A stretch of DNA of 64,000 nt from Apostichopus japonicus (Eukaryota > Echinodermata > Holothuroidea > Aspidochirotida > Stichopodidae). The notes under the pieces are model-generated. The model saw only the letters and a list, made by a program, of their open reading frames with translations, had not been told where the DNA came from and searched no databases. The stretch lies in NCBI RefSeq assembly GCF_037975245.1, contig NC_092577.1:5795001-5859000 (forward strand), given 5' to 3'. The first letter of the stretch is position 1; each line of letters opens with the position of its first letter. The position numbers and the translations under genes are program-made. This document shows, one piece after another, positions 35,501-59,497 of the stretch.

Positions 35501-37220
35501 CCGTCTTTCTTCCTCACAGAGGATGCTGATGAACTCATGGATGAAGGACTTGGCAATGTCAAATCATCAGGTCAAAAGGTCAAGAAAAAGGTCAGTATAA
35601 AAGGAAGCAAAAAAAAAAAAACAAATACTATGTTATCCTACTGAATCCAAGTCTGGTTGAGAAGATCAGTCAACAGACAGTTTCAATGATGGGAAGACCA
35701 CAGTTTTGAAGTGTAAAACCTTGAACTGGACTAATTACAATATTGATGTCCCAAACCTTGGACTGGATCTAACTAAATGTAGAGGTTTCAAACCCTTAGA
35801 CTGGACCATAATATTGATATGCCAAACCTTAGACTGGATCATACTAAATTTAGAAGTTACAAACCTTTAGACTGGACCATAATATTGACATGCCAAACCT
35901 TGGACTGGATCTAAGTTAATGTTGAAGTTAAAAACATTTAGACTGGACCATAATATTGATGTGCCACACCTTAGACTGGATCTAACTAAATGTAGAAGTT
36001 ACAAACCTTTAGACTTGACCATAATCTTGCTGTGCCAAACCTTGATCTTACTAAATGTAGAAGTTACAAACCTTTAGACTGGACCATAATATTGACATGC
36101 CAAACCTTGGACTGGATCTAAGTTAATGTTGAAGTTAAAAACATTTAGACTGGACCATAATATTGATGTGCCACACCTTAGACTGGATCTAACTAAATGT
36201 AGAAGTTACAAACCTTTAGACTTGACCATAATCTTGCTGTGCCAAACCTTGATCTTACTAAATGTAGAAGTTACAAACCTTAAGACTGGACCATAATGTT
36301 GATATGCCAAACCTTGGACTTGATCTAACTAAATGTTGAAGTCATAAACTTTAGACTGGACCTTTGATAGATGATTTATTCAGCCACATGCATAAAAATA
36401 CAATGGAAATTTTAAACTGATGTGCCAAACCTTGTACTAGATCTAACTAAATGTGGAAGTTGTGAACCATAGGTTGGACCACACTAGTGCCAAAGGCTGG
36501 ACTGGACTACAAATAGTGTAAAATTTTGTGAATTTGCATAAAAATGCATGAACCGATGTAGTGTGCATGTATAAAATTATAAAATGGACTAATCTAAATG
36601 GTAAATAATATTTCAGTATTGAAATATCAAAGACCAGATTATGCATTTGATATGAACATAATGTTAGTTCTATTTTCTTTTACCTTCACGCTAACCTAAT
36701 TCTAAGGATCGGTCTTTATTGTGGATGGTTTATGTTAATCTGCCTTTTAATATTTTTGCTCATTTTACAGAAAATGTCAAAGGGACCAGATGTTAAAGTC
36801 ACTATGTGCAACACTTGTGCAAGGTATGTTAACCTCCCAATCACCTGTAGCCTAGTTGGAATGTTATTTTTTCTTCATTTTCTGATTTTGGTAAGAATTG
36901 TATGTTTGGTTTATAAATATGTAACATTTAGGGGGCCTGATATTTTAGTCATAACAAGGGTCTTATTCAAAGTCGTGCTAAAGATATATAGATATATGTA
37001 TAAACACACATTGAGATCTTTTCACTGCGGCGACAATCAGGCAACTGAATCTTGCAATGATGATTATTTCCTTTAGGCGCTGTCAGGGAGGCTTCTTTGT
37101 GTGCGTGAAACTCTGAGTTGCAACGCAATGGAATAGCGTGATTAAACATATATCTATATAGCTATGCACCAGTTGTATTGAGCACTATACTGCTATTACT
37201 GAACTTTATACTACTGTATA

Positions 37221-40300: not shown

Positions 40301-43300
40301 GATCTAAGGAATTGCTATTACTTACAACAGCAGTTTGATTTGAATTTGAGAATTGTGGCTCAAACTCAGCTAAAGTTTGATAAAGTTAAGCATCTTTTAG
40401 ACTCAATCAAGTCCATTATAACCCAAAAAATTACATCTCATTCAAAAATTAATCTGATTCTATGAAGAGGTGAAGTGTGTGAGGAGAATATTATACAAAA
40501 TGGAAAAATGGACTTCAATTTACTGATAACCATTTGGCTTCAATTAGATAATTGAAATTAAATGTTATTCAACCATCATTTCCTTCAAGCAGAAATAATA
40601 ATATTGGTGTTTATTGTTTTTTCATCTCTGATAGGAGAGGACGGTGCATCAGTAACACAGAGAAGTGTGCATGAGTAAGTAGAGTGATACAAGTAATATC
40701 AGGACTTCTATTTTTATATCACCTTCTTAATTTTTATTTTATTGCTGGTTTTCTTAATGGCACTTTTTCTTTTACTTTATAAACTTGCATGCTTCACCTT
40801 GCTGGGCTTTGCATGCCTCTATCGTGCCTGCCGAAATTGGTATGGGTATAATATATACAATCTAAATTGGGTTAATGAATTAACTAAATAATTATTGAAT
40901 TCACTTTTTATTCTCTGGATGTAAATTATCTGCAGTCATGGGAGTCGCTTATTTTACAGCGGCAATCAGCAAACGTTATCTATGGGGAAAGTAGAGTCAT
41001 TACTTAAGGTCATTACATTACATAATAACATAAGGTCATTACATAAGGTCCCCGGTTTGAGTCACTCCCAGATTAATGTATGTCGTCCAGATGCAGAGTT
41101 GTTGACATTTAACAATTCATAATCATGGACGTTAAATATGAATGTAAGAGACTGACTTCGGTCAGCTTGCGGCTTTGAAAAGCCAATGCGGCTTCTTCGC
41201 GAGTTCCTGCTTGCAGGAGGATCTAATATACATACATACATACATGCATTACTTCTACCACACATGAGATGTCAGGTGGTTGGGCAATTAACGCTTTATT
41301 GACCTCATTTTTGACCTCATCTTTGGTATCAAAAAGGGGGAAAAAATCACTTTCGTAACCAGATAATCAAGTTTGTAGAGTAACTGGAAGGTTTTTCGAG
41401 GCAGTAGGGTTTCACCGTTCCCAATCTGGTATCTGTAATCTGATGCTTTATGATGAACTTGTCTTCCAAATAGAGGCAATTAAGAGATTTGTGAAAGTCA
41501 TGAATGCTCTTCATATTCTTTCTGTAACATTTTGGAGGGTTGAAGGTGGATACTAATCAGTCATAAGTTGTAAATGGAAGCATGACTTATGATAAAGGCA
41601 ATAGTCGTGTTTCCGTGGTAACATCACCCTGTTAAATACATCAGTTGGCACAAAATGCATCATGAGGTGGTTTCAGTCCTTGTGGGACAAGAGAACTTAT
41701 GGTCATTGTGCACGACAGTTATAACCATTGGCTACAGCAAAGATCTGGCCTAACTTTGTGCTATAAATAAGTGCACAGGGGCTGTTGGATGAATACGTTT
41801 CCATCATATTTCAAATTGATTTTTTCTAGTATAAACATAAACAATATTTTTAACAAGCAGTAGTAAAAATACAATATTTAAACCATGTATATTTAATGTT
41901 TTAATTCATACAAAAGAATATAATAACTCAATAGAAAATTCATCTAAGTTGTTTGATTGAATAAAAAATTCAGCTCTATAGACAGAGGAATTCTTAAACA
42001 GCTGTATTTTTCTGTACTTTTGCAACATATTAGGATTTTTCAGCTTACTTTTTGATTGCACGTTAGGACTCCTTACGGAGGCATGCAAGGGGGTGATAAT
42101 GATCATCATATGGTAATTATACCATTTTGATGCATACACCAATGAGCAGTAACATGTATGATAGAGTAGTCACAAAAGATATTGAATATATTGCTGTCAC
42201 TCTGCACATTAGTTAATATAGCCTGAGCTTATGACACTTCCTAACCAGACTTTCTGAGGCAAAGCCTAATGTATAATATAAAATAGTGTCATGGGCTGGA
42301 GGGAATCGCTGTGGACATTAAAAGAAAATAATGCTAGATATGTTTGTTCATTTTATTTAATAAAATGAACAAATGATAAACACTGATTTAATTGGTCAAT
42401 AACTCAGCTCCTGTTTAAAACATGTGATACACACATTATCAGCTTAGTATCGTGGGAACATGAAAAAAAAAAATTGATTTAATTGTTCAGTAATCACTGG
42501 TTGAAACATTATCAGGTGAGTATCGTGACATCATGAGAAAAAAACGAACAAAAACCCCCCCAAAAAAACAATAGTAAGAAATGCAGCCAAATTAGGATTA
42601 TTAAGTAGTTAGTAAGAAGGACTTGGGAGAACAAAGAATCTGTCCTAAGCATTGCAGTAAACATGGAGTTGGCCAGCATTACATTACCTCAGCTTATGTT
42701 TCATTGCTGATGATCACGCCAAAATCTTTCCTCTCTAGGTGAAAATTATGCCCAATAAATACCATCAGTTTACCAACAAATAAGGACACAATATAAATTG
42801 TGTTCGTTAAATACAGTTAGTAACTTAATTATTTAATTGTTAGAGGTCATCAGTAATTTGAATGTCTTTATAGAAAGTCAAATATACTGGTCATTTATAA
42901 TTTTTTTTGGGGCTGTCAATATCATTTTTATTTTACACCGAGACATTAATACGCGTCAGTATTAATTTGGGGCTCATCACCTGCAAAATTTTGACTAATG
43001 TTCACATTGCATTGCATTTCTGCTTATTTATTTATTTATTGATTTAATTTCTTTTCTTTTTGTGATGATGGGTGATGGCAACCTTATTACATTCCTCTAT
43101 GCATTCATTGATAAATATTCATTTTGCTTGTTTTACGTTTCATATACATATATAGTTTGCATCTGGTATGTACATGGGTTCACTAACATATTATTTTCCA
43201 TTGCTTTGCCAAATTTTCTTTGTTTAATAGCGGCACAAGTGAATTATTCCAGATGGGAGCAAGGGGTCGCCCTGGAATGCGTCAGCAAGCATGGATGGAA

Positions 43301-45998
43301 GGGGCTGATGTGGTTGGTGCTTACTTATTATTATATCTACTTTATTTATGTCATATTAACCTCAGTTCTTTAATTAAGGTCACGTTTCTGGATCACTTTA
43401 AGACCTATGACTTGTCCAGTTCTTGTTATCGGACTTGGGAGGTGATTTATTCCTTCATGCCACTTTGACAGAGGAGTTCATGACACTGGACTAGTGAGTT
43501 CATGACACTAGACTAAAGTGTTCCTGACTCTGGACTAACGAGTTCATGACACTGGATTAATGAGTTCATGCCACTGCACTAAGGAGTTCATGACAATGAG
43601 TTCATGCCACTGGACTATTGAGTTTGTGTAGACTTGCATGGTTCATGTAGAAAAAACTGTACAAGGTTCTTACTGTATGTTCCCTAAAGAACACAGCTTA
43701 AACACTCAACTGGTGGACTAATAAAGCCAGCCTTGTTTACAGCGGTTGAACAGACATTGGTGTATTCCTCCAATTATATCAGTGAAATCCTGCTGGTTCA
43801 GGTCCAAGAAACTCTATTCTGCAACATGGAACAGTGTGGGAAGCAACTAAACGATATATAGAATGGTGCGGCTACTGTATAATAAACACTACTGCGTGAT
43901 ATGACATTGTACATCCATTGACTTCTGCACAGTAGTTGACATTGATAGAAAAACGACGGATGGGCAGATAGTGATGGAGATACTGCACTACATTAGATGT
44001 GGCTGCAGAACGAGTCAGTGTTTCATGTACTAACACAGGTAGACATACCAGTATGTCTATTACATGACACACTTAAGACGTGCTTCAAAGTAGGGAGTTT
44101 TAGCTCGGTGGTTAACACCGGTGCCTTTCAATCATAAGGTTTCGAGTTCGAGTCACTCCAAGATTAATGTATGTCGTCCAGTTACAGTTGTTGACAATTG
44201 ACAATTCATAATCATGGACTTAAAATATAAATCTAAGAGACTGACTTCGGTCAGCTTGCCGCTTTGATAAGCCTATGAGGCTTCTTCGCGAGTTCCTGCT
44301 TGCAGGAGGATCTAAAATACATACATACATACATATACACTCATTTCACGAAACAAACGCCATTCCCAATCATATGAGACCAAGCTAAGCTTGTCTGTTA
44401 TGTTGATACTACAATTTGCCCATGGATACATAAAGACTTTGATGTGCTTTTTAGTAAAAAGTAGTGAAAATATGTGCATTTCACTATGTGCTGGTTTAAT
44501 TGGGTGGGTGGGTGGGGGGGAGGGGTGTTGTGTTAGTGTAGTAAAATGGTCCCCAGCTTTGATATGCAGAGTTTTATTGAACATAGCTATATTTTGGAAT
44601 TTGCATAAAAATTGCATGAAAATAGTATGGCATGGTGTTTAGCAGTGCCTTTTGTGCTTTACGATATTTTACTCTAAGTAACTACAAATGGATCATATTT
44701 GTCCTCGTTTTGGTTGTCCAATGATCACACCTGCCATGTTAAAATCCATCAAAGTTCCATTCGACAAACGTGTTGGTAAACGACACATTGGTGGAATTTA
44801 CTACCAAGCAGTGTCATCTAGAGTTAGATAAATGACATTTAGATGGGGTTTTGTTCCCTGTGGAAACGTTATTTTTCTTTTATAACGTGGGTGGAATTTT
44901 GTGATACCAGAACACAGCCTCCAAGATCTTAACTGACGTAGAGCAATGTAGCATTACATCCCAGGAAGTTAACAATTTAACGAAACACAGAGCAAAATTA
45001 TTGCCCTCTGATAATGATGGTTTATCGAACTGCAAAGGAACTTTTATGTTACTTGTCTACAATGGAAGATATATTTCTTAATCCAAGTCTGGGCACGAAA
45101 ACCTTCAAAACCATTCAGGTTTATTCACTTGCAATGGGAGTCCCTTACATCGAAACTGTGACCGTGTGGTCACGACAATCTTACATCTAGTGAGGGACCA
45201 CCTGTCCCTTTAGGAGAGCATAGTATATCACACATGATCTCGGTTAGAGGTAATATCGAACAGAAGTAAACCCGATATAAAGCCTGGGCACTAAAACACA
45301 AACAACTTGTTCCACTCTCAACCCCAGTCTCTGACTACATCGAAACTGTAAACCGTGTGATCACGACAATGAATACGTCTAGTGAGGGATCACAAGTCTT
45401 CTCAAAAGAGAATAGGGCACTACGCATGATCTCGGTTAGAGGTAAATTTGAAGAAAAGTTCACCCGAGATTGAGCCTGGATACAAGAACCCAAAAAATTC
45501 TTGATCCAACTCTCAACCCGTCACCTTACGTTGAACCTGCAACTGTGTGATGAGGATATTTTTGTACTATTATATTATTTAAATTTTCTTGAAATTGCAG
45601 GGTAATGAAACCCCAGTCACCTTACATCGAACCTGGAACTGTGTGATGAGGATTTTTTTGTGTCATTTTTTTCCCTTAATTTTCTTGAAATTGCAGGGGA
45701 ATGAAACCCCAGTAACCTTACATCGAACCTGCAATTGTGTGATGATGATTTTTTACTATTATTATCATTATTTTTATTTTATTTTCTTGAAATCGCAGGG
45801 GAATGAAACCCCAGTCACCTTACATTAAGCCTGCAACTGTGTGATAGTGATTTTTTATTATGATTATTTTTCTTTTTAATCTTCTTGTCATTGCAGGGGA
45901 ATGACAGGCAAGTAGCGACACCGACGGCCTCAGAATCCTCAATGCCGAGAGGTCATACTTGGCACGCCCGGTCGGATGACGACGATTCCAGCGTCTGA
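4812..45998 (+). CDS. C8orf34: C8orf34/VEST1 orthologue, complete gene of 15 coding exons
   Basis: Coding exons: 4812-4874, 14445-14540, 16795-16912, 21094-21198, 23968-24072, 27474-27499, 29726-29886, 30996-31162, 35520-35590, 36771-36823, 38602-38776, 39449-39473, 40635-40674, 43231-43312, 45897-45998. All phases join without a frame break, giving 462 codons plus stop; the human protein is slightly longer. Residues 1-53 resemble a RIIa-type dimerisation/docking domain (VQDYLEKHKI..LFE, then LM.KL....P.EPVPYLI..LQ). Later islands match the vertebrate protein: YERPW..N.KK (exon 4), KEHKKELAELVASQ (exon 8), a DADELMDEGL acidic patch (exon 9), VKVTMCNTCAR (exon 10), DDDFESASQVSGP (exon 11) and QPVWESEGEDG (exons 12-13). 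RIIa-like domains usually form dimers that bind amphipathic helices; the protein's own role is poorly known. The 3' end of exon 14 is the only doubtful boundary. A possible AATAAA lies at 46649-46654. Confidence 0.85.
5921..5952. repeat. Perfect 15-bp-arm inverted repeat in intron 1
   Basis: AAAGAATTTGCCCAC, two Ts, then its exact reverse complement GTGGGCAAATTCTTT. Flanking TACTCT and AGAGTA extend the pairing after a one-base mismatch. No coding or RNA role is evident. Confidence 0.9.
6700..6865 (-). mobile_element. tRNA-derived SINE remnant with five-fold amplified B box
   Basis: The minus strand carries a tRNA-like head. CTCGATCC on the plus strand corresponds to GGATCGAG, a B-box core, and the CTCAAGTCCTTTGCC segment resembles the related copies at 30190-30250 and 38160-38240. 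Between 6727 and 6806 the 16-bp unit CCAGGACTCGATCCGG is repeated exactly five times with two single-base variants. The family has one such unit elsewhere in this window. Confidence 0.6.
7340..8400. repeat. Degenerate dispersed repeat with GTCAATTTAA..GACATG motifs
   Basis: Variants of 'T(G/C)AATTTAAnnGACATGT' and 'CTCTCATTGGATGA(T/G)CATAGT' recur about every 130 bp, some inverted. This suggests a decayed tandem or foldback element. Boundaries are approximate. Confidence 0.4.
8390..9050. repeat. Tandem array of a ~55-bp unit (GTACAGTA..ACACATAGTAAGG..GGCACACTAGGCGCACCATA)
   Basis: About two copies lie before 8497 and four after 8845. The unit includes CACACTAGGCGCACCATATA and TCATGTACAGTA. 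The array is interrupted by the MITE at 8497-8845. Confidence 0.75.
8497..8845. mobile_element. MITE-like element with 14-bp terminal inverted repeats
   Basis: It begins CAGGGATGTGCCCA and ends with the exact reverse complement TGGGCACATCCCTG, about 349 bp in all. The interior has no coding capacity. It lies inside the 55-bp tandem array, so it inserted after the array formed. A clean target-site duplication could not be made out. The CAGGG ends are compatible with a non-autonomous hAT-type element, but this is inference. Confidence 0.7.
9050..9440. repeat. Degenerate repeat with AGGTCAAAGGTCA and CTTGTAAACATGATATCTC motifs
   Basis: Three to four diverged units carry ACCTTGTAAACATGATA(T/C)CTC, GGAATCATGGATACTTCTCAT and AGGTCAAAGGTCATCTGAGATCACC-like segments. 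A related unit lies at about 11120-11290. The first unit contains a perfect AGGTCA-A-AGGTCA at 9148-9160. Confidence 0.55.
14445..14540 (+). CDS. C8orf34: C8orf34 orthologue exon 2 (second half of RIIa-like domain)
   Basis: Thirty-two codons, phase 0 at both ends, between TTTGTTTTCAG and GTAAGT. It contains LMSKLVNTLP and PVPYLIKILQKF, the second helix and conserved Pro-containing turn of RIIa-like domains. Confidence 0.85.
14541..16794 (+). other. Intron 2 of the C8orf34 orthologue
   Basis: No coding exon. It contains a (TG)n run near 14676-14697, a (GTAT)n microsatellite at about 16528-16610, and many TACTGTA/TACAGTA words. Confidence 0.6.
16795..16912 (+). CDS. C8orf34: C8orf34 orthologue exon 3 (basic, Pro/Ser/Thr-rich linker)
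   Basis: Enters in phase 0 after CGAGCAG and leaves in phase 1 at TCATCGG|GTACTT. It reads HPKEPSKPRTP...KRSRPTVVRTISS. The RTISS end aligns with RTLSG of human C8orf34. The donor was chosen because only it keeps frame with exon 4. Confidence 0.7.
16913..21093 (+). other. Intron 3 of the C8orf34 orthologue
   Basis: No coding exon. It includes a two-copy tandem repeat at about 20010-20262 and G-rich/pyrimidine-rich simple sequence (17520-17600, 20940-21060). Confidence 0.6.
20010..20262. repeat. Two-copy tandem repeat, ~145-bp unit
   Basis: CTGTCCTGTACT(C/G)TAGGTT...CCAAACTGAT...CTGTTAATAA...GAGAGG.(G/A)GCTGTG appears twice in direct orientation with moderate divergence. Confidence 0.75.
21094..21198 (+). 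CDS. C8orf34: C8orf34 orthologue exon 4 (YERPW motif)
   Basis: Phase 1 to phase 1. It reads ..LANMGEDRGYERPWVQNMKK and then a Ser/Asp-rich end. The Y(E/D)(R/K)PW..N.KK motif is shared with human C8orf34. The donor is GAG|GTAGTT. Confidence 0.8.
21199..23967 (+). other. Intron 4 of the C8orf34 orthologue
   Basis: No coding exon. It contains poly-A/AT runs at about 22230-22300 and a four-copy 61-bp tandem repeat at 23087-23322. Confidence 0.6.
23087..23322. repeat. Four-copy tandem repeat of 61 bp
   Basis: The unit begins GCACTGTACACCCTTAAYG and ends TCTTCTATTTG, with copies 85-95% alike by eye. Confidence 0.85.
23968..24072 (+). CDS. C8orf34: C8orf34 orthologue exon 5 (basic, Gln/Lys-rich)
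   Basis: Phase 1 to phase 1 between TTCTTCAACAG and GTGAGT. It reads RKPKRAESKQSLDND...QQRQPKKSNAKLTA. Low sequence complexity; assigned mainly by phase, splice sites and position. Confidence 0.65.
24150..24345. mobile_element. Foldback/MITE-like element with ~60-bp inverted arms
   Basis: The left arm 24210-24270 (GTAAAAGTAAGTTGGCCTGA...AGGATCTTCAAAGGC) pairs with the right arm 24285-24343 (GCCTTTGAAGAAGATCCTGC...AACTTACTTTTACACA). The left flank from 24150 (AACTGTTAGCAAACTGCTTA, then TCCACTAGAGAGCC) recurs at 37962-38044. There only the left arm is kept and it runs into a SINE. Confidence 0.75.
24515..24756 (+). mobile_element. U2-snRNA-headed SINE, copy 2, with 16-bp target-site duplication
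   Basis: From 24539 it reads ATCGCTTCTCGGCCTTTTGG, identical to the U2 snRNA 5' end, then CTTAGAAGACCATGTGTAGT. The body follows with the same CAGTCACAGTCCCGAT and GTGCCCAGGTTCTTTCCTGG blocks as copy 1 and the same TTCTTAAAAAGTAC tail. TTAAGTAGCTTTTCAA flanks it at 24515-24530 and 24741-24756. Confidence 0.85.
24770..25335. repeat. Three-copy tandem repeat, ~180-187-bp unit
   Basis: The block TTGTTAGCACTGTTGGCAAA...TCATTATAATGCCCCT begins at 24921, 25108 and 25288. The preceding CTCACCGGCT and CAGGCAGGG(G/A)CAT blocks recur with it. Confidence 0.85.
26079..26130. repeat. (AAT)n/(AAAT)n microsatellite
   Basis: AATAATAAT... followed by AAATAAAT. The run of Asn it gives in one frame is a repeat artefact. 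Sequence just after it (ATATAGCGACAAATACC...GCGCTTTACAAACCC) resembles the ATATAGCGCTTTATA...CACTTTACAGA block at 29960-30010 and may be a decayed relative. Confidence 0.8.
27474..27499 (+). CDS. C8orf34: C8orf34 orthologue exon 6 (26-nt microexon)
   Basis: TTTTTTTCAG|ATTCAGAGCT...GAGGGG|GTAAGA. Phase 1 to phase 0, adding NSELWAVEG. Its size and phase exactly bridge exons 5 and 7. Confidence 0.65.
27500..29725 (+). other. Intron 6 of the C8orf34 orthologue
   Basis: No coding exon. It contains an AT-rich ATGCATAT-type stretch at about 27970-28110 and scattered G/C runs. Confidence 0.55.
29726..29886 (+). CDS. C8orf34: C8orf34 orthologue exon 7 (Glu/Gln-rich acidic segment)
   Basis: Phase 0 to phase 2 between CCTTTCACAG and GTAAGT. 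It reads EESASRMPAESDQPRPTSQQ... and ends EEKTDKEEQETAV. Likely disordered or coiled. Confidence 0.75.
29955..30250 (-). mobile_element. tRNA-derived SINE (family B)
   Basis: On the minus strand the head reads GCGCAATGGCCAATTGGCTA (A box) and, about 35 nt on, GGTTCGATTCC (B box). A body with CAGGAGTTAAATGGGTGCC-like and CTTTGAGGCATATCGCTGG-like segments follows, ending in a TATATAAAA-type tail. Relatives lie at 38045-38245 and 6700-6865. Confidence 0.7.
30810..30893 (-). mobile_element. tRNA-Leu/Ser-like fragment (SINE head or tRNA pseudogene)
   Basis: The minus strand reads GGTCGAGTGGATAACGGC (A-box-like) and GTTGTGGGTTCAATCC (B-box-like), about 60 nt apart. This spacing fits class II tRNAs with a long variable arm. 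The acceptor stem does not pair well, so it is not called a functional tRNA. Confidence 0.45.
30996..31162 (+). CDS. C8orf34: C8orf34 orthologue exon 8 (KEHKKELAELVASQ motif)
   Basis: Phase 2 to phase 1 between GTCTATTTAG and GTAGGT. KSKEHKKELAELVASQ aligns with the KKLLAAMLSQ segment of human C8orf34 and leads into an acidic stretch (DTGEDEGDVIDPVVEEATD). Confidence 0.8.
31409..33636. mobile_element. 2.2-kb hAT-like element with 8-bp target-site duplication
   Basis: Ends are CAGGGACGTAGCCAGG (31417) and CCTGGCTACGTCGCTG (ending 33628), imperfect inverted repeats of the CAG(N)GGCGTAGCCAG type. GTTAGTAG flanks it exactly at 31409-31416 and 33629-33636. Eight-bp duplications and these ends are typical of hAT transposons. 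No transposase frame is visible, so it is non-autonomous. It contains the nested element at 32420-33319. Confidence 0.85.
32420..33319. mobile_element. Nested element with CAAGGGCGGC inverted ends
   Basis: It starts CAAGGGCGGC and ends GCCGCCCTTG. It lies inside the larger hAT-like element and contains a copy (about 32582-33140) of the outer segment 32116-32404. Both share GGCGTAGCCAGTATGTAGCA, CTACCCGCCGAAAAAGAC and CTTTGTATCTACAAGTATCA. Target duplication is unclear. Confidence 0.65.
34561..34832 (-). mobile_element. tRNA-derived SINE (family A), copy 1
   Basis: Reverse orientation. A (GTAT)n tail at 34561-34600 is followed by the body (TTAGATCCTCCTGCACGCAG, GCTGACCGAAGTCAGTCTC, GTCCATGATTATGAATTGTC). 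The tRNA-like head at the right end includes GTTAACCACTGAGCAATA, the complement of the A box. Confidence 0.8.
35520..35590 (+). CDS. C8orf34: C8orf34 orthologue exon 9 (acidic DADELMDEGL)
   Basis: Phase 1 to phase 0 between CTTCCTCACAG and GTCAGT. EDADELMDEGLGNVKSSGQK aligns with the EDDAMELLEDL region of human C8orf34, then a basic KVKKK. Confidence 0.8.
35591..36770 (+). other. Intron 9 of the C8orf34 orthologue
   Basis: Mostly occupied by the 71-bp tandem array described separately. No coding exon. Confidence 0.65.
35690..36490. repeat. 71-bp tandem array with a 207-bp higher-order repeat
   Basis: Unit: CCAAACCTTGGACTGGATCT, AACTAAATGTAGAAGTTACA, AACCTTTAGACTGGACCATA, ATATTGATATG. About ten units. 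The three-unit block at 35887-36093 is followed by a nearly identical block from 36094 to about 36300, offset by 207 bp. Confidence 0.85.
36771..36823 (+). CDS. C8orf34: C8orf34 orthologue exon 10 (VKVTMCNTCAR motif)
   Basis: Phase 0 to phase 2 between CATTTTACAG and GTATGT. KMSKGPDVKVTMCNTCA(R) matches the KVTLNICSRCAR segment of human C8orf34. The CxxC pair is conserved and could be structural. Confidence 0.85.
37217..37300. repeat. (TA)n microsatellite
   Basis: About 40 TA dinucleotides with one TACA interruption. Confidence 0.95.
37962..38245 (-). mobile_element. Foldback fragment joined to a tRNA-derived SINE (family B)
   Basis: 37962-38044 repeats the left flank of the element at 24150-24236. 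The family B body then begins abruptly (CAGCAGTTAGGCAGCACCCA) and ends with the minus-strand head at about 38170-38240 (complement of GGTTCGAGTCC B box and an A box). Confidence 0.65.
38313..38552 (-). mobile_element. tRNA-derived SINE (family A), copy 2
   Basis: Same order as copy 1: a short GTATG tail, TTTTAGATCCTCCTGCAAGC, GATGACCGAAGTCAGTCTCT, then the tRNA-like head with GACTCGAAC (B-box complement) and GTTAACCACTGAGCTAAA (A-box complement). Confidence 0.8.
38602..38776 (+). CDS. C8orf34: C8orf34 orthologue exon 11 (Gly/Ser-rich, DDDFESASQVSGP)
   Basis: Phase 2 to phase 0 between TACTTTCAG and GTAAGA. It reads RVIKGDGSSDVRSFGGF, a Gly/Ser-rich linker with six consecutive glycines, then LMSDDDFESASQVSGP. 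The last part aligns with ALMEEGDEFEKASKLTGP of human C8orf34. Confidence 0.85.
38777..39448 (+). other. Intron 11 of the C8orf34 orthologue
   Basis: Almost entirely a truncated non-LTR retrotransposon (see that entry). The open frame running out of exon 11 is read-through into it. Confidence 0.6.
38840..39370 (+). pseudogene. 5'-truncated non-LTR retrotransposon, C-terminal end of reverse transcriptase ORF
   Basis: One frame reads SLTWNTHVNNMASKAKQRLY..RRLAGFGL, the usual segment after the RT palm in CR1/L2/Rex-type elements. After a frame change it continues ..LSFLVHCGPVLL and ..DHPLFDFYMKPRRF...R(M)RTERFRRSFLPRSIKTLN. That is the standard 'HPL...RT.R...SF.P.AI..LN' end. A stop at about 39278 is followed by a short 3' UTR ending ATCAATAAATTTTACTTTA. 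Frameshifted and inactive. Confidence 0.8.
39449..39473 (+). CDS. C8orf34: C8orf34 orthologue exon 12 (25-nt microexon)
   Basis: TTTTTTACAG|AGGCAACCTG...CAGAAG|GTAAGT, phase 0 to phase 1. RQPVWESEG aligns with HQPWILPSDTESEG of human C8orf34. Confidence 0.75.
39474..40634 (+). other. Intron 12 of the C8orf34 orthologue
   Basis: Contains the 39-bp tandem array at 39671-40079. Nothing coding is recognised in the rest. Confidence 0.6.
39671..40079. repeat. Tandem array of a ~39-bp unit, about ten copies
   Basis: The unit is near GGTAAATGAAACCGGTAGGG followed by AGTAAACGCCGTATAAATA. Because 39 is a multiple of three, two minus-strand frames stay open with a 13-residue period (FHLPIY..F.PYR). 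No start context, splice sites or homology support expression. Confidence 0.85.
40635..40674 (+). CDS. C8orf34: C8orf34 orthologue exon 13 (40-nt microexon)
   Basis: TCTCTGATAG|GAGAGGACGG...CATGA|GTAAGT, phase 1 to phase 2, adding GEDGASVTQRSVH. Assigned by phase and splice sites. Confidence 0.6.
40675..43230 (+). other. Intron 13 of the C8orf34 orthologue
   Basis: Contains a 5'-truncated family A SINE (41045-41248). The rest is AT-rich with no coding exon seen. Confidence 0.55.
41045..41248 (+). mobile_element. tRNA-derived SINE (family A), copy 3, 5'-truncated
   Basis: It starts inside the B box (GGTTTGAGTCACTCCCAGAT) and continues through GACTGACTTCGGTCAGCTTG and GAGTTCCTGCTTGCAGGAGG to a (CATA)n tail. 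The A box is missing. Confidence 0.8.
43231..43312 (+). CDS. C8orf34: C8orf34 orthologue exon 14 (3' end uncertain)
   Basis: Enters in phase 2 after TGTTTAATAG and reads GTSELFQMGARGRPGMRQQA then WMEGADV. A phase-0 exit is needed for exon 15. GATGTG|GTTGGT (43312) and GAT|GTGGTT (43309) both work but are weak donors. A longer version ending AAG|GTCACG at about 43378 would add a hydrophobic tail unlike the rest of the protein. Confidence 0.5.
43465..43630. repeat. Short tandem repeat, ~22-27-bp unit (GAGTTCATGACACTGGACTA)
   Basis: About seven imperfect copies of (A/T)GAGTTCATG(A/C)CACTGGACTA. Confidence 0.8.
44091..44337 (+). mobile_element. tRNA-derived SINE (family A), copy 4, full length
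   Basis: The head reads TTTTAGCTCGGTGGTTAACA (A box) and GGTTTCGAGTTCGAGTCACT (B box), then body and (ATAC)n tail. It is the most complete copy in the window and shows the family's structure. Confidence 0.85.
45080..45580 (-). repeat. Diverged antisense U2-headed-SINE units in tandem
   Basis: Two near-complete units (about 45080-45266 and 45268-45458) and one partial unit (about 45460-45580) match the reverse complement of the U2-headed SINE. Shared body blocks include TCTGGGCACGAAAACC, TCCACTCTCAACCCCAGTC and ATCGAAACTGTgACCGTGTG. The U2-head part appears as CACATGATCTcgGttAGAGG. Divergence is high, so they are old or a different subfamily. Confidence 0.6.
45585..45896 (+). repeat. Tandem 96-102-bp units repeating a 3' splice-site look-alike
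   Basis: TTCTTGAAATTGCAGGGGAA-type junctions (with variants) end at 45600, 45696, 45798 and 45896; the last is the acceptor of exon 15. After each of the first three comes TGAAACCCCAGT(C/A)ACCTTACA and then (A/C)TGTGTGATGA. The CCCCAGTCACCTTACATCG block resembles the antisense SINE body. Confidence 0.8.
45897..45998 (+). CDS. C8orf34: C8orf34 orthologue exon 15 (C-terminus and stop)
   Basis: Starts GGGAATGACAGGCAAGTA after CATTGCAG in phase 0. It reads GNDRQVATPTASESSMPRGH, TWHARSDDDDSSV, then TGA at 45996-45998. The acidic Ser/Asp tail fits the protein's style, but this end is not clearly alignable to human C8orf34. Confidence 0.65.
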   Translation, partial: GNDRQVATPTASESSMPRGHTWHARSDDDDSSV

Positions 45999-51372: not shown

Positions 51373-51520
51373 ATGAGATCTGATTTACTTCTCGCGGCAG
51401 TGGTCACCCTGTCTCAGTATGTATTTATTTGCGAAAGTGTCCCTCTGCACAGCGAGGATTATGAAGAGAAATCCATCCGCCGGTTAAGAGGTCTAACGGA
51501 TATGCAATATTCCGATCAAG
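51373..51520 (+). CDS. Lectin-like gene exon 1 (signal peptide)
   Basis: ATG followed by MRSDLLLAAVVTLSQYVFIC: a short basic N-terminus and a hydrophobic core ending near CES, typical of a secretory signal. An acidic/basic stretch (HSEDYEEKSIRRLRGL) follows. It exits in phase 1 at CAAG|GTATAT. Confidence 0.7.
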
Positions 51521-54500
51521 GTATATTTCTATGTATATATTGTTACATTATTTTCCAAACGGAGAGATTAACGGTTACTACAAAATGATACAAAAGTGTG
51601 GGAATGCTTAATCTATTTTAACTATTTCGATATAAATCGTATATATACCTTTAAAGAACTCTATACCAAATAAATGTAACTTTATTTTGTTCCTCATTTC
51701 ATATGTTATTCTTCTTTGTTAACTACGGCGGTGGGGAGGGCATGGGGGTGGGGGCTCGGGTATTTTGGCAAGAATGTACATCGCCATGATAGTGTTAAAA
51801 CCTATTTACTATACAACAGTACCTAAATGGATTGTAGAGTTTGTGATCGGTTCGTTCGTGATAATAATGCTTCTTAAAGAGACGATCATGTTAGAGTTTC
51901 AACTAACATACACCTCAGAACATTTTCCATCCTTGAAGATATATTATTCTCATTTAGAACGACACATTCGGTGTGATAAATGTTAACGATCACCACCGCC
52001 GACAGTCATGTATAACCCGTTCGAAAGTTGTATCACGTTTTAGCACGCTACAATACCATGTTATTGTAGTGTATTGGAAAGGAGAGTGTATAGTGTCAGC
52101 CGATTAACATGATAGTATGCAATACTATGGTACTGTAATATTAAAAACAAACAATATAATTGTTATGATAACATATCATTGTACTATGTAATACTATAGC
52201 GCAAACATATCATTGTGGATGATTTAAATTATATTATTATAATACACTGTCATTGTATGATACCATTTGAAACGAGTGATATAATTATGCAACACTATTA
52301 TTGTGGATGTTTATAGTATATTATATTATTGTTGACACTAATTGAATCCGGTGGTAAGAAAGAGATAGTGGCTCCCCCTTTGGTCAGACACCTCTTCCCT
52401 TCACTCTTATATCTCATGATTGTATGTTTGATTAGTATTTTTTCTTTACCAAAAGTCCGTTTTTAGTGAAAATCTTCCCTGTAAAGATTGGATTGAGAAA
52501 CCAAGTTGCATTAATGTATTGACACCCCCACCCCCCTTCATTACTTGCAGTCTTCACTGTTTGTGTACTAATTGTGTGCATATATCCTTGCGTGAAGTGT
52601 GCGCAAGCTGCGAGAGGTGTCCCGCTATTATCTCGAAGATTCTGAAGTCTTGTAACCTCTAATTCCCAATGGCTTAATTGGGTTAACCGAGCGATCCCTC
52701 CCACACCACCTCACCCATCCGAAACAGTAGCGTTGTGTCTCGTGTTCTCCTGCTGGAATCGAATTGACAATATACATCTTTCAGAACAGTATATCTCAGT
52801 AGGCCTGTACAGTTCTGGGTGTATAATTAAAAGTTACTAAGAAGGGATACATTTACATTATGTTTTCTTTCCCCTTCAAATTAGGTGTATTACAGAAATT
52901 CGTCGTCATGAGCTGTCCAGATGACTTCCAACTAGTCATCGAGCCAGACGAAGCAGAGATTGTCGTCCGATGGGAGGATGACACTACAGAGGAAACCGTG
53001 AAAATGTCAACAGCACATCACGAACATTCAAACCGTATCGAGGCCACAATTGAACGGGTTTACGAAGACAGTAGTTCGGAAGTTTCAGGCTGTAAATTTC
53101 TCGTCACACTGCGAGGTAACGTTTACCAGCACATCCTCATTTAAATCATTCTGCCACGATATATCGAGTATTTGAGCTGACTTCTGCTGCAAACACCTCC
53201 AACAAAATTTTGCTTGAAATTGTAGCCTTAAATATTTTAAATATATACGTTATTTTTCGACTGTAGTTTGAACAAACTGCATGCCTTCACAGTAACTTTC
53301 CAACCGCTGATGGAGTCTTTATTTCATACTAAGACCTTTTTTTTTACCGGAGTTTGATGGACATCACTAAGGAGTAAGGTTTAAACCCAACGCATTCGTT
53401 AGTATAACAATCACTATCCACTTTGATGTGAGGTATATCGCATATTGAAAATTCATCGGAGATGTTGTAGTCAGCATGTCTTTTGACTCCAGATATGGTT
53501 ACACCTTCCCGCATTCAAATTATGCCCCTTCTGTATCTCCACCACTGTCACCCTCTTCCACAAAATAAAGACTTTTGATATTATCGGCTTTTGGTAACGA
53601 TAGTTAACATATACAAGAGTTATAGTTCAACACTTCTCTGAAATGAAACTTGACTAATCAATATATAGAACTACATTTTATGGTAGTATCAAAGATCATC
53701 GAAAATATGCAACAAAACTAGCTGAAAATCCTTTTTTTTTAAATCAATTAAACATCCATTAATAAACATCGGCCTTTGTATTCTCCATTTACTCTCATTC
53801 TGCTAGAAGAACAAGATAGTTCATCCTCTGAACTTATCAATATGCACGAAATTGACGTCATCAACGAAACAGCAGCAGAATCTGTCGATTACGTTACAAC
53901 TGAAGATCCTTCCGCAACTCATACAGATTCAATCACCCAAACTACAAATTCAGATGACGTCACGTCGCCACCTTCTACGCAGATGTCAAGACTTGAAGAA
54001 AGTGACGTTACAGCAATTGTCCCAGAGATGTCTATAGTTGACTATACAACGAGCAGCCGCGTAGATATCGAAATAACCAATAAGGAAGCAAACTTTGAAT
54101 ATGTTACAACCACAGTATCAGCAACTATGGAAGACACTGAGCGAACGTCAGTATCTCCCAACGCACATACACAACAAGAATGGGGAATTGGGACTACCGA
54201 TAATAAATTGACATCCTTTAGTTCCACATTACCCAGTCAGAAGGCCCAGAAGATAGATTCTACCGAAGCAGTAACACATCAGTCAGAAATCGTTGGTACT
54301 GTGAGTCCGCTAGGACTATCGAGTACTGTATTAACCAATCAAGGAGAACTATATACAGGTTTCGCTAACAAGATACCGACATCGGACGTTAGTTTGGAAA
54401 ATGTCAACACACCTTCGACGAATGGGACGGATCTGCTTACAATGACTACAGTATCTGAGAACTTCATTGAAAATGCCACTGTGTCCTACACCTCAGATAT

Positions 54501-57500
54501 GGACAACAAGACGGTCACTGAACAAACACCGACAGAGGGCAACTTTGTGAACGACTACACCTCTATGTCGATCTTATTTAATAATACTCCAGCAATGGAT
54601 ACCATAACGACAGCTGAGTATGAAGTACAAACGGATGCTACAGGAGACTATTCGGACGAAACTACGTTATTAATGAACAGCACAGAGACCGGAATACCAG
54701 ATGAATATCAAGAGAGCCTCAGTTACGATGAACCTACTTCGTCAACACCCACCGTTACGTCACCCAAACAATTTGGGAATACAAATGGACGAATGGGACG
54801 AATTGATTCGAGTACAGAATCTGACCATGTAAATTTTGAATCATCAACTGATGAATATTTGTACACTAATAGCAACTCTTCGACTGAAATCAATTTCAAT
54901 CAATTTTTGTCTCTAACAAATGAGCCCGAATTGGAAATTTTCAAAAATGTAACTACAGATGCTACTACACTGGGACAGGAACTAACAAGTGTAACAGTTG
55001 CTACTGAAGAATACTTCATCAATGAGACGACAGAGGTTCCGCTAACTTCAAACCTTGGACCTGTTCACTACGAAACTGAAACAGCCTTTTCAACAATAGA
55101 AACATCAACCGTTCGGCCAACTAATGAACCAGAATCATCTAACACGCTCCAGAGAACTACTGACATGACGTCACAAAGTGTTAACCCTACGAGGGATTAC
55201 GAAGGGAATCAATCATTCAGCGATTTATATCAGAATGGTACAGTTCCTGAGGTTGATCACGGGAGAGACGGTTGTGTGCTCGTAAACGGAACCATTATAC
55301 AGGTAAGAAAACACCAGTAAGCAATCCGTGGCGTTGTCTAGGCGATTTAAATAACATTGCTAAGAACCAATGGCATGACATTGTTGTAATATTATAAAAA
55401 TATCATGTCGTTAGTGACGTTAACCTTCGCTTTCTTTGAAATACGTGAAAGAAGACACTCCAAACTTTGAAGATCCAAGCCATTACTACAAATCCTTATC
55501 CCCTTCCATATCCTCCAGGTCTTTTTGTCATTTGCACATAACTATTTTGCTTTGCCTACATCAAATTTAATTTGTCTCTTCATAATGCAGGTTGGAGGGT
55601 CATTTACAACCGCGAATTGCGCATATTCCTGTACTTGCCGTCGACAAGGTACTCTGATGTGTAATAGAAAAGGATGTGATCAATTTCAAGAATGCAACAT
55701 CAATGATGGTATCAGTGACTGTTACTGTCGGAAAGGATTTTACCATGATGGCGAGAAATGTATCAAAGGTATTTATAGGCAGAGACATAATCACACTTTC
55801 TATCTGTGGAATCGACTTACCTTCCTCCTCTCCCTCAAAGTCATAATGGTAATTAAGCGCTAGTGTTTGCAGTAGAGAAAATGTACGATGAGTCAGTTTA
55901 GAATGCCAATCAAAGCGGAATACATTACAATCTATTGTATCATTTAATATCTTTATTCTGTCTTTGACTGTCCATATGGGATAATAAATAAACACCCGAT
56001 TTGTCTCGTGGGTCCATATTTCATTTAGAATTTTCTTAAGGCCCTATCGATTGTCCGCGTGTTGGGTTAACCGTCTTTGTCCCCGCCTTCATCTTCACCG
56101 TCACGCAACGGCAATCATCATTGTTTTGAACAACGTCAACATCGTAAATGATTCTTCATAAACCATCAAAAGTTAAAAACATACGTGACAGTGTCGTCAA
56201 CAAGATCAACATCATAAATGATTTCTTAATAAACCATCAGAAGTGTAATCAGTACGTGGCATTTTCTTTATCTTTGCCATGTTATATTCGTTTTCATCGT
56301 CATCAACATCTGTATCTTCATTGTCATCGTTCGTATTTGCATATCTATCTCCTTCTCCGAGGTCATCTCGATCCTTTGTCATCTTCATCGCTATGGTTGT
56401 CGACGTCAAACTGATATTATGACGCTACCTTTTTATCATATAACTATTTTAAACAGATTGCCCTGATCGTTTTATTACGTTCGAAGATGGATGTTACCAT
56501 TTCCATAATGAAAAGATGAATTTTGATGATGCCCAAAAGTTTTGTCAGAGTATGAGCGCCAACCTGGCTGTGATAAAAAACGGCAGAGAAGATGCTTTTA
56601 TTTCAAGTTTGGCGGGAATTAAAAAAGAAGTATGGATCGGAGCGTATAGGGGAAAAACCGAAGGTACTATTTATTAATCAAGATGTTTTTGTTAACAGCA
56701 TGTATTCACATATTTCAACCCTTCAGTAAACAAATCATTTAAAAACAATATGTTCAGTCTCATTCGGTTTGTATCACAGTACTGGCATCTTTTTCTCCAC
56801 ATCGCAAGTAAAGTTGAGTCGTAACCAAAACCTCGACCTGCCACAATCCTGTACTTGGAAATCCCTACTGAACTAGAGACCCCACCCCAGTGGCGCGGGC
56901 TGTCCACCGCGGACGGGTTCAACTCGTAAGCACACTAACCAACGAGTTACTAAGCTAGGGAGCCCCCTCACTTGTCCCTCACAACAGCTGATACATATTC
57001 CTAGCTATAGAAGTCAAGTGATCTCACAAAGAAAGTAAAATTCTGCTGGAATATAAAAATATCAATCGCCATATAGATCTGGCCCACGGTCCCAGTGAGC
57101 TCGCGTTCCTTTTTCTATAACGTTGCTTGTATTATCACGGTGTTCGCTATAATGACATATCCTTGATGCTACTGACCTCTTTCCTCCTAGTATTTCGACC
57201 TGTATACGAGCTTTCCAATTCATCAGCTACTCTTTCAATTTACGAAACATGAGCACGTGAATAATCTTTCATATATCGATGCGTACAGTATACTAGGTGT
57301 AGCATTTGTCAACCTTTTCCCAGTACAAAACATCCCTATAGCTACAAGGGTGGAAACTGCTGGCATAATATGTTCGACCGCTTTTCAAAGTTAATATCGT
57401 TCGACCACTGTTTTATCTTTTAATGGTAGATCCAGTTTATTTGACAACGACTGGGGATCTGCAGCATTCTCAGATATGGAGTCCAGAGATGCCGAGTGGG

Positions 57501-59497
57501 ATCTATCGACTGGAATTTTCATTCTATCCTCTTCACAAGGCGCATATCTTTCTCGGCCCAAAACCAAAACTAGTGAAAGAAATGTACGAGATTGGTAAGT
57601 CAAAATGACAGGCAGCAAAAAATGTTCTCAGCTTAATCATTGAAGTACCACCAGCAGTTCTTTAGACGTTACCGACCCACAGCTGGTCTGTGAACATTGA
57701 ATATTGATTTGTTGAAGCTGAATTAATTGCGTTGTGGAATATGGATGTTGGCTGGACTTTCTTAAGTCGACATGCAACAGTCACATAGAACATCCAATTG
57801 GTTAACAACAATTGACAAATCACTTGAAGTAGTTAAAGGATATTCAATTTTGTAAAAAGGAAAATAGCTGTTCTCTTTCATGTTAGTTGTCGTTGTTGCT
57901 GTAATACTGTTGTTGTACCACTGGTGTTGTACCACTGTTGTTGTTTTGCTGTTGTTGTTACTGTAATTATCGCCCAGTGTCGAATTATTTAAGAGACAGA
58001 TGAGCAAAGAGCCTATAGGGGCTCATTGATGAAGGCACACAAAGGTCAATGGGTCTCGGCGAACTCTTCCAATCAGACAGTACAACTTCATATATCCTGG
58101 CGGTGCCTGCCAAACTTAATATGGTGGCATGAGAAGCGAATAACATGGCTTAAGATCACTGAGGATCTGTCGTTGCACTCCTTGTTGTCGCTATGACGAT
58201 GATATTGTTCGTCACTTGGGTATGTTGCCCCGAAGGTAATTAAAATCTCATAACTAAGGAATAAATTGCTTGAATCTGCCTACAGTGATGATGTTACAAC
58301 CCGTTGCGACCGAGTATTTTCATTCTCGCCTCTGATTCGCTGATATGGCATCATGTGATGATCCCTGACAACCCATTATTTTTTTAATTACATATTTTGG
58401 ACTTCATTAGCACGTGCAAATCAATAGAAATGAAAACATTTTGGGAGGGTATGGAGTTAGTAAACAGGGTTCAGTGACCAGTTCAAGGACACTGACAAAG
58501 CATATAATACAATTATAGACAATGCGATTATCAATGTGGCACTAAAAGTCTAATCAGTGGTCTTTTATTGACATGAAAATTATAAATGAAATAAAGATGG
58601 TTCTATTGGTGATTATCTTTATCCACTGTTTTTTTTATATGTCAACACTACTAAAACGCAAATCCATAATTCATTAACCCTAATTCACGATGCATTTGTA
58701 TATCTCCTCTTGTAGTACTCGGAGAGTCGGGTGAATTTAACGTATTAATCCGAAGATGTCCGAATTGTATGGAAAAGTTCGCAAAGTATAGGTTCAAACT
58801 TACGGAGACCAATGTGACCGACGGAGACAGATTTTACATAACATTCAAGAACAATATGATTGAACTTGGCCAAGTCGGTGCTTATTCGCCATTTGTGAGC
58901 TGGGTCGACAGGACCGGTCGACCGCGTGACATTCGTTACATAGGATTTGCAAGTGATGGAATCGTCACCCAATGGCGTATATTCTGTAAGTGAAACATTT
59001 ACACATAAGCCTCTTCAGCTTTCTTAGTTTGATTTAAATCAAGCTGCAGTCACCTTTCTGCAATTGCAAGCTGTTGTTTGTGTTTGAAAACCTACAGTCA
59101 CTTTTCAGCATTTTTAGCTGTTTCTATTATATAATACCATACATCCGCAAAAATACACAAAGTACACACAGTATCCGCTTTCGCTGAAACTAGAGGTGAT
59201 TCGCTTGCCTTGTCATCGTCATAATCGCTTGACATATAAAGATTTCTGCATAGAACTTTGCAGTAAAAATGCCAGATTATTGATTTACTTGTATATTTTA
59301 TACTTCCGTTTCTCATTTTATCCTTAGTTGACTTTCATTGGGTCGACGGGTCACCATGGATATACGAAAATTGGTATCTCACGGAGCCAGATTTGTTCGA
59401 TGACGTTGACGCATGCGTATTTGCTAATTACAAGTACAGCGGCGCTTGGAATGATGACAATTGTAAACACCAGAGACGATTCATTTGTAAGATGTGA
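51373..59497 (+). CDS. Secreted HYR / mucin-like / TILa-EGF-like / C-type lectin protein with an inserted Methyltransf_FA-like domain
   Basis: Exons: 51373-51520, 52885-53115, 53807-55302, 55591-55768, 56457-56663, 57430-57594, 58716-58985, 59328-59497. The phases agree throughout, giving 954 codons plus stop. Domains in order: signal peptide (about 1-22); diverged HYR module (CPDDFQLVIEP...CKFLVTL); about 500 residues rich in Thr/Ser/Glu with many N-x-S/T sites; a TILa/VWC-like plus EGF-like Cys-rich module; the first half of a C-type lectin domain; a Methyltransf_FA-like domain; the second half of the lectin domain with WND and the final Cys. There is no transmembrane segment, so the product is probably secreted. 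Likely roles are carbohydrate or surface binding in extracellular matrix, mucus or immunity; this is inference from domains. An AATAAA lies at 59966-59971. Confidence 0.75.
51521..52884 (+). other. Intron 1 of the lectin-like gene
   Basis: AT-rich. A palindrome-like ATACTATGGTACTGTAATAT stretch at about 52110-52340 repeats 'ACTAT..TTGT' words. No coding exon seen. Confidence 0.55.
52885..53115 (+). CDS. Lectin-like gene exon 2 (HYR-like module)
   Basis: Phase 1 to phase 1. MSCPDDFQLVIEPDEAEIVV then RWEDDTTEE, ending SGCKFLVTLR. The C-P-D-D-(I/F), V-x-W and C-x-F-x-V-T features and about 70-residue length fit a HYR (hyalin repeat) domain, although the centre is diverged. Confidence 0.65.
53116..53806 (+). 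other. Intron 2 of the lectin-like gene
   Basis: No feature recognised beyond the splice sites GTAACG and TCTGCTAG. Confidence 0.6.
53807..55302 (+). CDS. Lectin-like gene exon 3 (1.5-kb Thr/Ser-rich mucin-like exon)
   Basis: One open exon of 1,496 nt, phase 1 to phase 0. It is dominated by Thr, Ser and Glu (DYVTTEDPSATHTD, TTTVSATMED, TIETSTVRPT) with no cysteine until GRDGCVLVNGTIIQ at the end. About a dozen N-x-S/T sequons (NET, NGT, NAT, NKT, NST, NSS, NVT, NQS) are visible. It is expected to be an extended, heavily O- and N-glycosylated stalk. There is no clear tandem repetition, unlike many mucins. Confidence 0.8.
55591..55768 (+). CDS. Lectin-like gene exon 4 (TILa/VWC-like and EGF-like Cys-rich module)
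   Basis: Phase 0 to phase 1. With the end of exon 3 it reads GCVLVNG..., VGGSFTTANCAYSCTCRRQG, TLMCNRKGCDQFQEC: the spacing of a TILa/VWC-type module seen in tectorin- and FCGBP-like proteins. DCYCRKGFYHDGEKC follows, the C-terminal loop of an EGF-like domain. Confidence 0.7.
55769..56456 (+). other. Intron 4 of the lectin-like gene
   Basis: Contains a short duplication (AACCATCAAAAGTTAAAAAC / AACCATCAGAAGTGTAATCA around 56160-56250) and CATC-rich simple sequence (56290-56400). No coding exon. Confidence 0.55.
56457..56663 (+). CDS. Lectin-like gene exon 5 (N-terminal half of C-type lectin domain)
   Basis: Phase 1 to phase 1. DCPDRFITFEDGCYHFHNEK gives the long-form CTLD start with two Cys. 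Then come FDDAQKFCQSMSANLAVIK (helix 1-2 and the first core Cys), EDAFISSLA and VWIGAYRGKTEG. WIG is the conserved strand before the long loop region. The exon ends exactly where the loop begins. Confidence 0.85.
56664..57429 (+). other. Intron 5 of the lectin-like gene
   Basis: Contains a minus-strand tRNA-like fragment (56860-56975). The acceptor for the next exon is a modest TTTAATGGTAG. Confidence 0.5.
56860..56975 (-). mobile_element. tRNA-like SINE fragment
   Basis: The minus strand reads CCCTAGCTTAGTAACTCGTT (A-box-like) and CGAGTTGAACCCGTCC (B-box-like) with tRNA-like spacing. Unlike families A and B. Boundaries are approximate. Confidence 0.4.
57430..57594 (+). CDS. Lectin-like gene exon 6 (N-terminal half of Methyltransf_FA-like domain)
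   Basis: Phase 1 to phase 1, 165 nt. It reads DPVYLTTTGD, IWSPEMPSGIYRLEFSFYPL and HKAHIFLGPKPKLVKEMYEI. The 'F.V....AHI.L.......YEI' pattern is the first half of the farnesoic acid O-methyltransferase (PF12248-type) domain. The acceptor TTTAATGGTAG has a short pyrimidine tract, which fits weak or regulated inclusion. Confidence 0.75.
57595..58715 (+). other. Intron 6 of the lectin-like gene
   Basis: A GTTGTTGTACCACTG-type repeat at about 57890-57960. No coding exon seen. Confidence 0.55.
58716..58985 (+). CDS. Lectin-like gene exon 7 (C-terminal half of Methyltransf_FA-like domain)
   Basis: Phase 1 to phase 1, 270 nt. VLGESGEFNVLIRRCPNCME continues the domain (EI(V)(L/I)G...(N)..IR), then DRFYITFKNNMIELGQVGAY, SPFVSWVD, and DIRYIGFASDGIVTQWRIF. 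The pattern 'F.I.....I..G..G...PF..W.D....(V/I)(R/K)Y(V/I)GF..' is characteristic of the Methyltransf_FA family. The family name comes from arthropod proteins; most members are of unknown activity, and no SAM-binding motif is visible here. Confidence 0.8.
58986..59327 (+). other. Intron 7 of the lectin-like gene
   Basis: No feature recognised beyond GTAAGT and the TTTTATCCTTAG acceptor. Confidence 0.6.
59328..59497 (+). CDS. Lectin-like gene exon 8 (C-terminal half of C-type lectin domain, stop)
   Basis: Enters in phase 1. DFHWVDGSPWIYENWYLTEP, DLFDDVDACVFANYKYSGAW, NDDNCKHQRRFICKM, then TGA at 59495-59497. It contains F.WVDGSP, the NW.L motif, EPD at the position of the EPN/QPD sugar-specificity triplet, the WND motif and the last three core Cys. 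EPD is neither the mannose-type EPN nor the galactose-type QPD, so specificity cannot be predicted. Confidence 0.85.

Follow-up and report, generated by a model that had tools for sequence, protein, structure and literature searches.

A gene family of the sea cucumber Apostichopus japonicus whose C-type lectin domain carries a predicted Methyltransf_FA domain in its long loop

Domain insertion and variability of the long loop in C-type lectin domains (CTLDs) are both known in general. For the domain family PF12248 (Methyltransf_FA, or FAMeT) a close described setting is the footprint of sea stars, where the domain is combined with EGF-like and/or hyalin domains in the proteins Sfp3, Sfp4a, Sfp5 and Sfp7 (PMC9382459). 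The part of that paper available to us calls the role of FAMeT in footprints unknown and adds that, among adhesives, it might be specific to sea stars (PMC9382459). A further footprint protein, Sfp1, is also given a FAMeT domain (PMC9382459); it is entered as 'CTL' in a table of one partly available report (PMC7037938) and as 'galactose binding' in the accessible text of another (PMC4275877), and because of these differing descriptions a CTLD in Sfp1 is uncertain. PF12248 is also present in an abalone shell-matrix protein (accessible part of PMC6003135), and FAMeT may not be an enzyme (accessible part of PMC10015273). Its name refers to farnesoic acid O-methyltransferase, but this should not be taken to imply enzyme activity in the protein described here.

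We describe a gene in which a PF12248 domain appears to lie inside a CTLD. No report of such nesting was found in searches of the open-licence literature, although unpublished protein annotations may exist, and the pairing of PF12248 with a CTLD, in such a position and across a gene family, appears to be new.

The window gene and its nested head

The window, i.e., the whole stretch of 64,000 nucleotides that was analysed (C17:5795001-5859000 of its assembly), holds an eight-exon gene model on the plus strand, running from an ATG at 51373 to a stop at 59497 in a single open frame of 951 predicted amino acids. Exon 1 (51373..51520) supplies the ATG and an N-terminus that resembles a signal peptide by eye, no predictor having been used, and ends in a phase-1 donor. 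Exon 2 (52885..53115, phases 1 and 1) is weakly HYR (hyalin repeat)-like, with 17.6 bits against a PF02494 cut-off of 21.7; in the full-length protein no HYR match was listed at E <= 0.01. Exon 3 (53816..55302) encodes a Thr/Ser-rich, mucin-like stretch with 87 T and 60 S among the 484 residues counted. Two alternative in-frame acceptors are possible for this exon, at 53807 and 53810, and give proteins of 953-954 aa. Exon 4 (55591..55768) encodes a Cys-rich TILa/EGF-like module, for which TILa (PF12714) scores above its cut-off and EGF_3 below. Every junction of the gene but one is phase 1, the exception being the phase-0 junction of the Thr/Ser-rich exon with the TILa exon. The protein terminates directly behind the CTLD and therefore has no membrane anchor after it; the predicted product is a secreted protein of about 951 aa.

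The head is encoded by the last four exons. Exon 5 (56457..56663) carries the first half of the CTLD, as far as WIGAYRGKTE, and contains three of the six conserved Cys, while exon 8 (59328..59497) carries the second half, with EPD, WND and the remaining three conserved Cys, followed by the stop. Between them, exon 6 (57430..57594) and exon 7 (58716..58985) encode the N-terminal and C-terminal portions of the nested PF12248 domain. An earlier note on this DNA had placed the CTLD halves in exons 5 and 8 with phase-1 GT-AG junctions, and the coordinates, frames, sites and phases were all found as it claimed: exons 5-8 form one frame, with phase 1 and GT-AG at each of the three junctions. The lengths of exons 5, 6 and 7 (207, 165 and 270 nt) are each divisible by 3. 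The insert comprises 145 residues and the primary sequence of the CTLD is thus non-contiguous, which is the novelty of the arrangement and does not bar homology.

The note had also proposed a PF12248-like domain in exons 6-7, and an HMM search (hmmscan) bears this out, with a match of 44.8 bits against a cut-off of 24.2 (E 1.4e-11, profile positions 21-136 of 140). When exons 5 and 8 are joined, PF00059 matches them in a single stretch over its whole length (profile 1-107 of 107; 79.7 bits, E 3.4e-22, cut-off 22.6), whereas with the insert kept the score falls to 69.2 bits and the match is broken in two. The joined CTLD aligns to several solved CTLDs, e.g., those of PLA2R, DEC-205 and the mannose receptor, with no gap across the junction, and the insert therefore interrupts a complete CTLD. 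Two viral lectin-like Pfam families also matched the CTLD weakly, below cut-off. Solved structures matched the insert only at E values of 0.61, 0.6 and 0.92, all of which we took as chance.

The complete PF12248 domain would be placed in the long loop of the CTLD, just past the WIGL strand. Six cysteines (C1, C12, C29, C243, C259 and C267) and W59 are invariant in all nine CTLDs aligned, an alignment that leaves out one of the nested relatives (L068). By the disulfide topology usual for CTLDs, we take one Cys pair to link exon 5 to exon 8. Because this pair spans the insert, the CTLD core is presumed to fold around it. That the insert folds on its own, where it would lie in space and how exons 5-8 are spliced are all inferred from the genomic sequence.

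With the gene's own parts, minus the Thr/Ser-rich exon, as tblastn queries, no second copy of the gene was found within the window. The window does contain copies of a dispersed repeat, each about 200-250 bp long and 88-92% identical to one another, at 34581-34834, 38313-38554, 41042-41249 (inverted) and 44094-44336 (inverted). Overlapping self-match blocks at 35704-36362 and 39669-40083 are probably tandem repeats, and open frames at 38573-39279 resemble, as far as we can judge, the end of a reverse transcriptase of retrotransposon type.

Nested relatives and empty sites

The genome was searched with exon 5, the insert and exon 8 as queries; only the best candidates were scored, so the counts given here are lower bounds. 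Five loci on contig C15 (L042, L043, L044, L045 and L046) have the pieces in matching order and strand, and full models could be read for each. A sixth relative, L068, also on C15, was reached by the PF12248 family search of the genome. Contig C15 thereby holds six of the seven nested genes, and three of these lie inside a span of about 76 kb. Both Pfam domains score above cut-off in all seven genes modelled; the insert scores range from 25.7 to 112.1 bits, the lowest being that of L043, which is narrowly past the cut-off of 24.2.

The insert occupies the same site every time. Exon 5 stops 9-10 residues from WIGL, counting from and including its W, and exon 8 starts 1-2 residues ahead of F-x-W in all seven genes. 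The exon 5/6, 6/7 and 7/8 junctions are readable as phase 1 with GT-AG throughout, and the inserts, 134-147 residues long, are class 1-1 modules in every case, with both ends in phase 1 and a length that is a multiple of 3. Among the five relatives searched for an upstream TILa/EGF-like exon, as in the window gene, L042, L043 and L045 have one; none was matched in L044 and L046, for which the upstream sequence covered came to about 2 kb. The inserts of the six relatives are only 23-35% identical to that of the window, and for this reason we regard the nested layout as old. The insert of L045 is 45-48% identical to the non-nested modules on contig C4 described below, compared with 28-38% to the other nested inserts compared, and separate gains or exchange are therefore possible.

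Because the same nesting recurs in at least seven genes, the splitting of a CTLD by another complete domain seems to be a genuine arrangement and not a misread gene. The gene model was read from genomic DNA only, and one could suppose that exons 6-7 are a separate gene within the intron, or that the arrangement is an artefact of gene prediction. This candidate was tried and rejected, and we hold it to be extremely improbable, since seven loci share order, strand, site and phase, and the eight exons of the window gene, once spliced, read as one open frame.

A different question is whether exons 6-7 are always included. The reading frame is preserved with the two exons included or skipped in 7/7 nested genes, and skipping them would yield an ordinary CTLD. 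This intact frame would suit an alternative cassette, such that the main product is a plain CTLD and the nested form a minor isoform or a switch. The exon-5 donor of the window gene, AAG/GTACTA, deviates from the GTAAGT consensus, and in insect famet genes PF12248 copy number is altered by alternative splicing (accessible part of PMC10015273), both of which point the same way. However, exons 6 and 7 retain frame, splice sites and domain signature in all seven genes in spite of their low identity, which suggests that they are used, and the exon-5 donor is GTGAGT in two of the six other genes (L045 and L046). On balance we find a predominantly plain product unlikely.

Three further CTLD genes (L047, L048 and L054) have the same phase-1 intron just past WIGL, of 1002, 1284 and 1109 nt respectively, with no insert. 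In L047 two candidate phase-1 acceptors lie a few bases apart. In these three introns tblastn gave no match at E <= 0.01 to exons 6 and 7 from the first six nested genes, and none at E <= 0.5 to those from the window gene alone. Among 20 loci with the last CTLD exon, a script found a phase-1 acceptor in 18; on reading, an acceptor of this phase at the site holds in 16, five nested and 11 non-nested, in L030 weakly. The 11 include the three empty-site genes just described. In three of the other loci (L036, L037 and L040) the WIG strand lies within the same exon, and L039 is ambiguous.

The earlier note had left two readings side by side, a folded domain-in-domain insertion next to the sugar-binding loop and an exon-shuffled cassette. 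The seven nested genes, together with the three relatives whose identical intron is empty, support the two as one, with the cassette as the probable mechanism and the nested domain as its product. Specifically, a two-exon class 1-1 cassette would have come to sit in a phase-1 CTLD intron that appears still to be empty in many CTLD genes of the genome. In fish CTLD genes an intron lies 'downstream of the WIGL motif', its phase being unstated in the accessible part of the source (PMC514892). Because of the empty sites and this same-position intron in fish, an old intron that took up a symmetric module is the simplest account. Exon order, phases and empty sites are read directly from the loci; the event is presumed to have been a gain, not a loss.

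The opposite course, in which nesting is ancestral and the CTLD genes with empty sites have lost the cassette, is compatible with the divergence of the inserts (23-35% to the window), which makes the architecture old, and neither gain nor loss is resolved by the trees. A single origin of nesting is neither demonstrated nor rejected by them (AU p 0.32 for 17 CTLDs and 0.06 for 11 PF12248 domains); the trees have few supported branches, L068 is in neither, and in the CTLD tree, which also has long branches, four entries consist of the last exon alone. The fish intron and the 11 non-nested loci nevertheless fit an older, empty intron, and we rate ancestral nesting as unlikely. Our best reading, which we consider probable, is that the nested CTLD head arose from a cassette in an old intron; it would be carried by a secreted, mucin-like protein, tentatively of matrix or adhesive type.

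PF12248 modules elsewhere in the genome

At least 21 places in the genome carry PF12248: the family search returned 22 rows that merge to 20, to which C15:943k is added. Seven of the 21 are nested, and eight were examined by tblastn with the window exons and by reading of open frames and are non-nested (two on C4, one on C9 and five on C11). At the place on C23 no CTLD half was matched within the 2.5 kb viewed; an additional weak PF12248 match with an internal stop is also seen on C23. The nested count leaves out five places (C4:8.617M, two on C5, C11:2.606M and C11:2.954M).

At C4:430k and C4:571k a single-exon PF12248 domain with Cys at both ends (positions 3979-4506 of L051, C4:426000-435000, and 4681-5235 of L052, C4:567000-576000) is preceded by a CTLD last exon and, as judged by eye, followed by a CTLD first exon. 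The domain thus lies between two CTLDs, in tandem order and on the same strand, and not inside one. At C9:3.95M (L053, C9:3948000-3957000, minus strand) a Thr/Ser-rich repeat exon is followed by a single-exon PF12248 and then by fibrinogen-C exons, which makes fibrinogen-C another partner of PF12248. At C11:2.63-2.64M (L049-L050, C11:2625500-2645000) five tandem PF12248 pieces stand beside exons of SUEL (galactose/rhamnose-binding) lectin, and one C11 copy is apparently also split, directly after the Y-E-V motif.

All three single-exon copies read (two on C4, one on C9) have Cys at both ends, compared with 0/7 nested inserts. We infer that the two ends of the PF12248 domain are near each other, a disulfide holding them in the free-standing domain and the host loop doing so in the nested one.

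Outside this genome, no PF12248 match was found in 14 control genomes. A search beyond animals with the L045 insert gave 18 pattern hits in genome contigs, none of which was confirmed, and none in viral contigs; with a single protein as query it reaches close relatives only and so says little.

Sugar site, function and known systems

The canonical sugar-site motif of CTLDs is EPN or QPD plus WND, and the window gene has EPD and WND. The EPN and WND pair is complete in none of the seven nested CTLDs and, by script, in 7/11 non-nested CTLDs with the same intron (Fisher p 0.013); when L041 is read by eye the latter count becomes 8/11, the p value applying to the script count. The loci compared are related, non-random and picked by similarity, and they include close duplicates (L033 and L034), so that the contrast is a lead. 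As a lead it fits a classical sugar site that is altered or lost, though the window CTLD may still bind Ca2+. The nested domain would take over or reshape the surface used by a classical CTLD for binding Ca2+ and sugar. A bolder reading would be that, in this gene family, a second binding domain in the long loop replaced the canonical Ca2+/EPN site by a composite site, and that inclusion of exons 6-7 switches between plain lectin and composite; we put this forward as a speculation that we consider unlikely.

The head would be borne by a secreted stalk that is rich in Thr/Ser and includes TILa/EGF-like and HYR-like modules. Of the module types that footprint proteins combine, the window gene shows PF12248 and TILa above cut-off and EGF_3 and HYR below. 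Because these PF12248, TILa/EGF-like, HYR-like and mucin-like parts recall the footprint proteins of sea stars, we tentatively favour a role in secreted mucus, matrix or tube-foot adhesive, where the protein may bind glycans or matrix partners. The main rival is a role of the composite head in immune recognition. Invertebrate immunity frequently involves CTLDs and secreted lectins with several domains, and immune gene families are often clustered, as are the nested genes, with six of seven on C15 and three in about 76 kb. Against this, the stalk and the TILa/EGF-like, HYR-like and PF12248 modules are closer to the sea star footprint proteins, and the EPN and WND pair is not retained. We regard an immune role as somewhat unlikely, and return to the matrix or adhesive role as the one tentatively preferred.

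A complete module in a CTLD loop, present in at least seven genes that also have relatives with the site empty, would offer a natural test of how well the fold tolerates insertion, and the same family would test how intron phase guides domain-in-domain evolution. The unexplained PF12248 domain gains a fixed position beside a known binding face, and its role becomes testable by comparison of nested and empty genes. If the protein does belong to an adhesive or mucus, the secretions of sea cucumbers and sea stars would be linked.

The window protein resembles Sfp3, Sfp4a, Sfp5 and Sfp7 of Asterias rubens in being, by prediction, a secreted echinoderm multi-domain protein with FAMeT, and its stalk resembles the Thr-rich Sfp12; unlike in the window gene, no CTLD nesting is described for the Asterias footprint proteins in the accessible part of that paper (PMC9382459). 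The FAMeT proteins of insects and crustaceans have the same Pfam domain, with a copy number that splicing alters in insects, but, as far as the accessible part of the source goes, their PF12248 occurs in tandem or as PF12248-DUF3421 with no lectin domain (PMC10015273). With long-form CTLDs (PF00059) the window gene shares the full-length profile once the insert is removed, the six conserved Cys and a WIGL-type motif, and its best solved matches are the CTLDs of PLA2R, the yolk sac IgY receptor, DEC-205 and the mannose receptors. It differs from an ordinary CTLD in that its long loop carries a complete second domain and EPD replaces EPN. The PF12248 copies of the nested genes, in turn, belong to their family by score, 7/7 lying above the Pfam cut-off, yet they are sited inside another domain.
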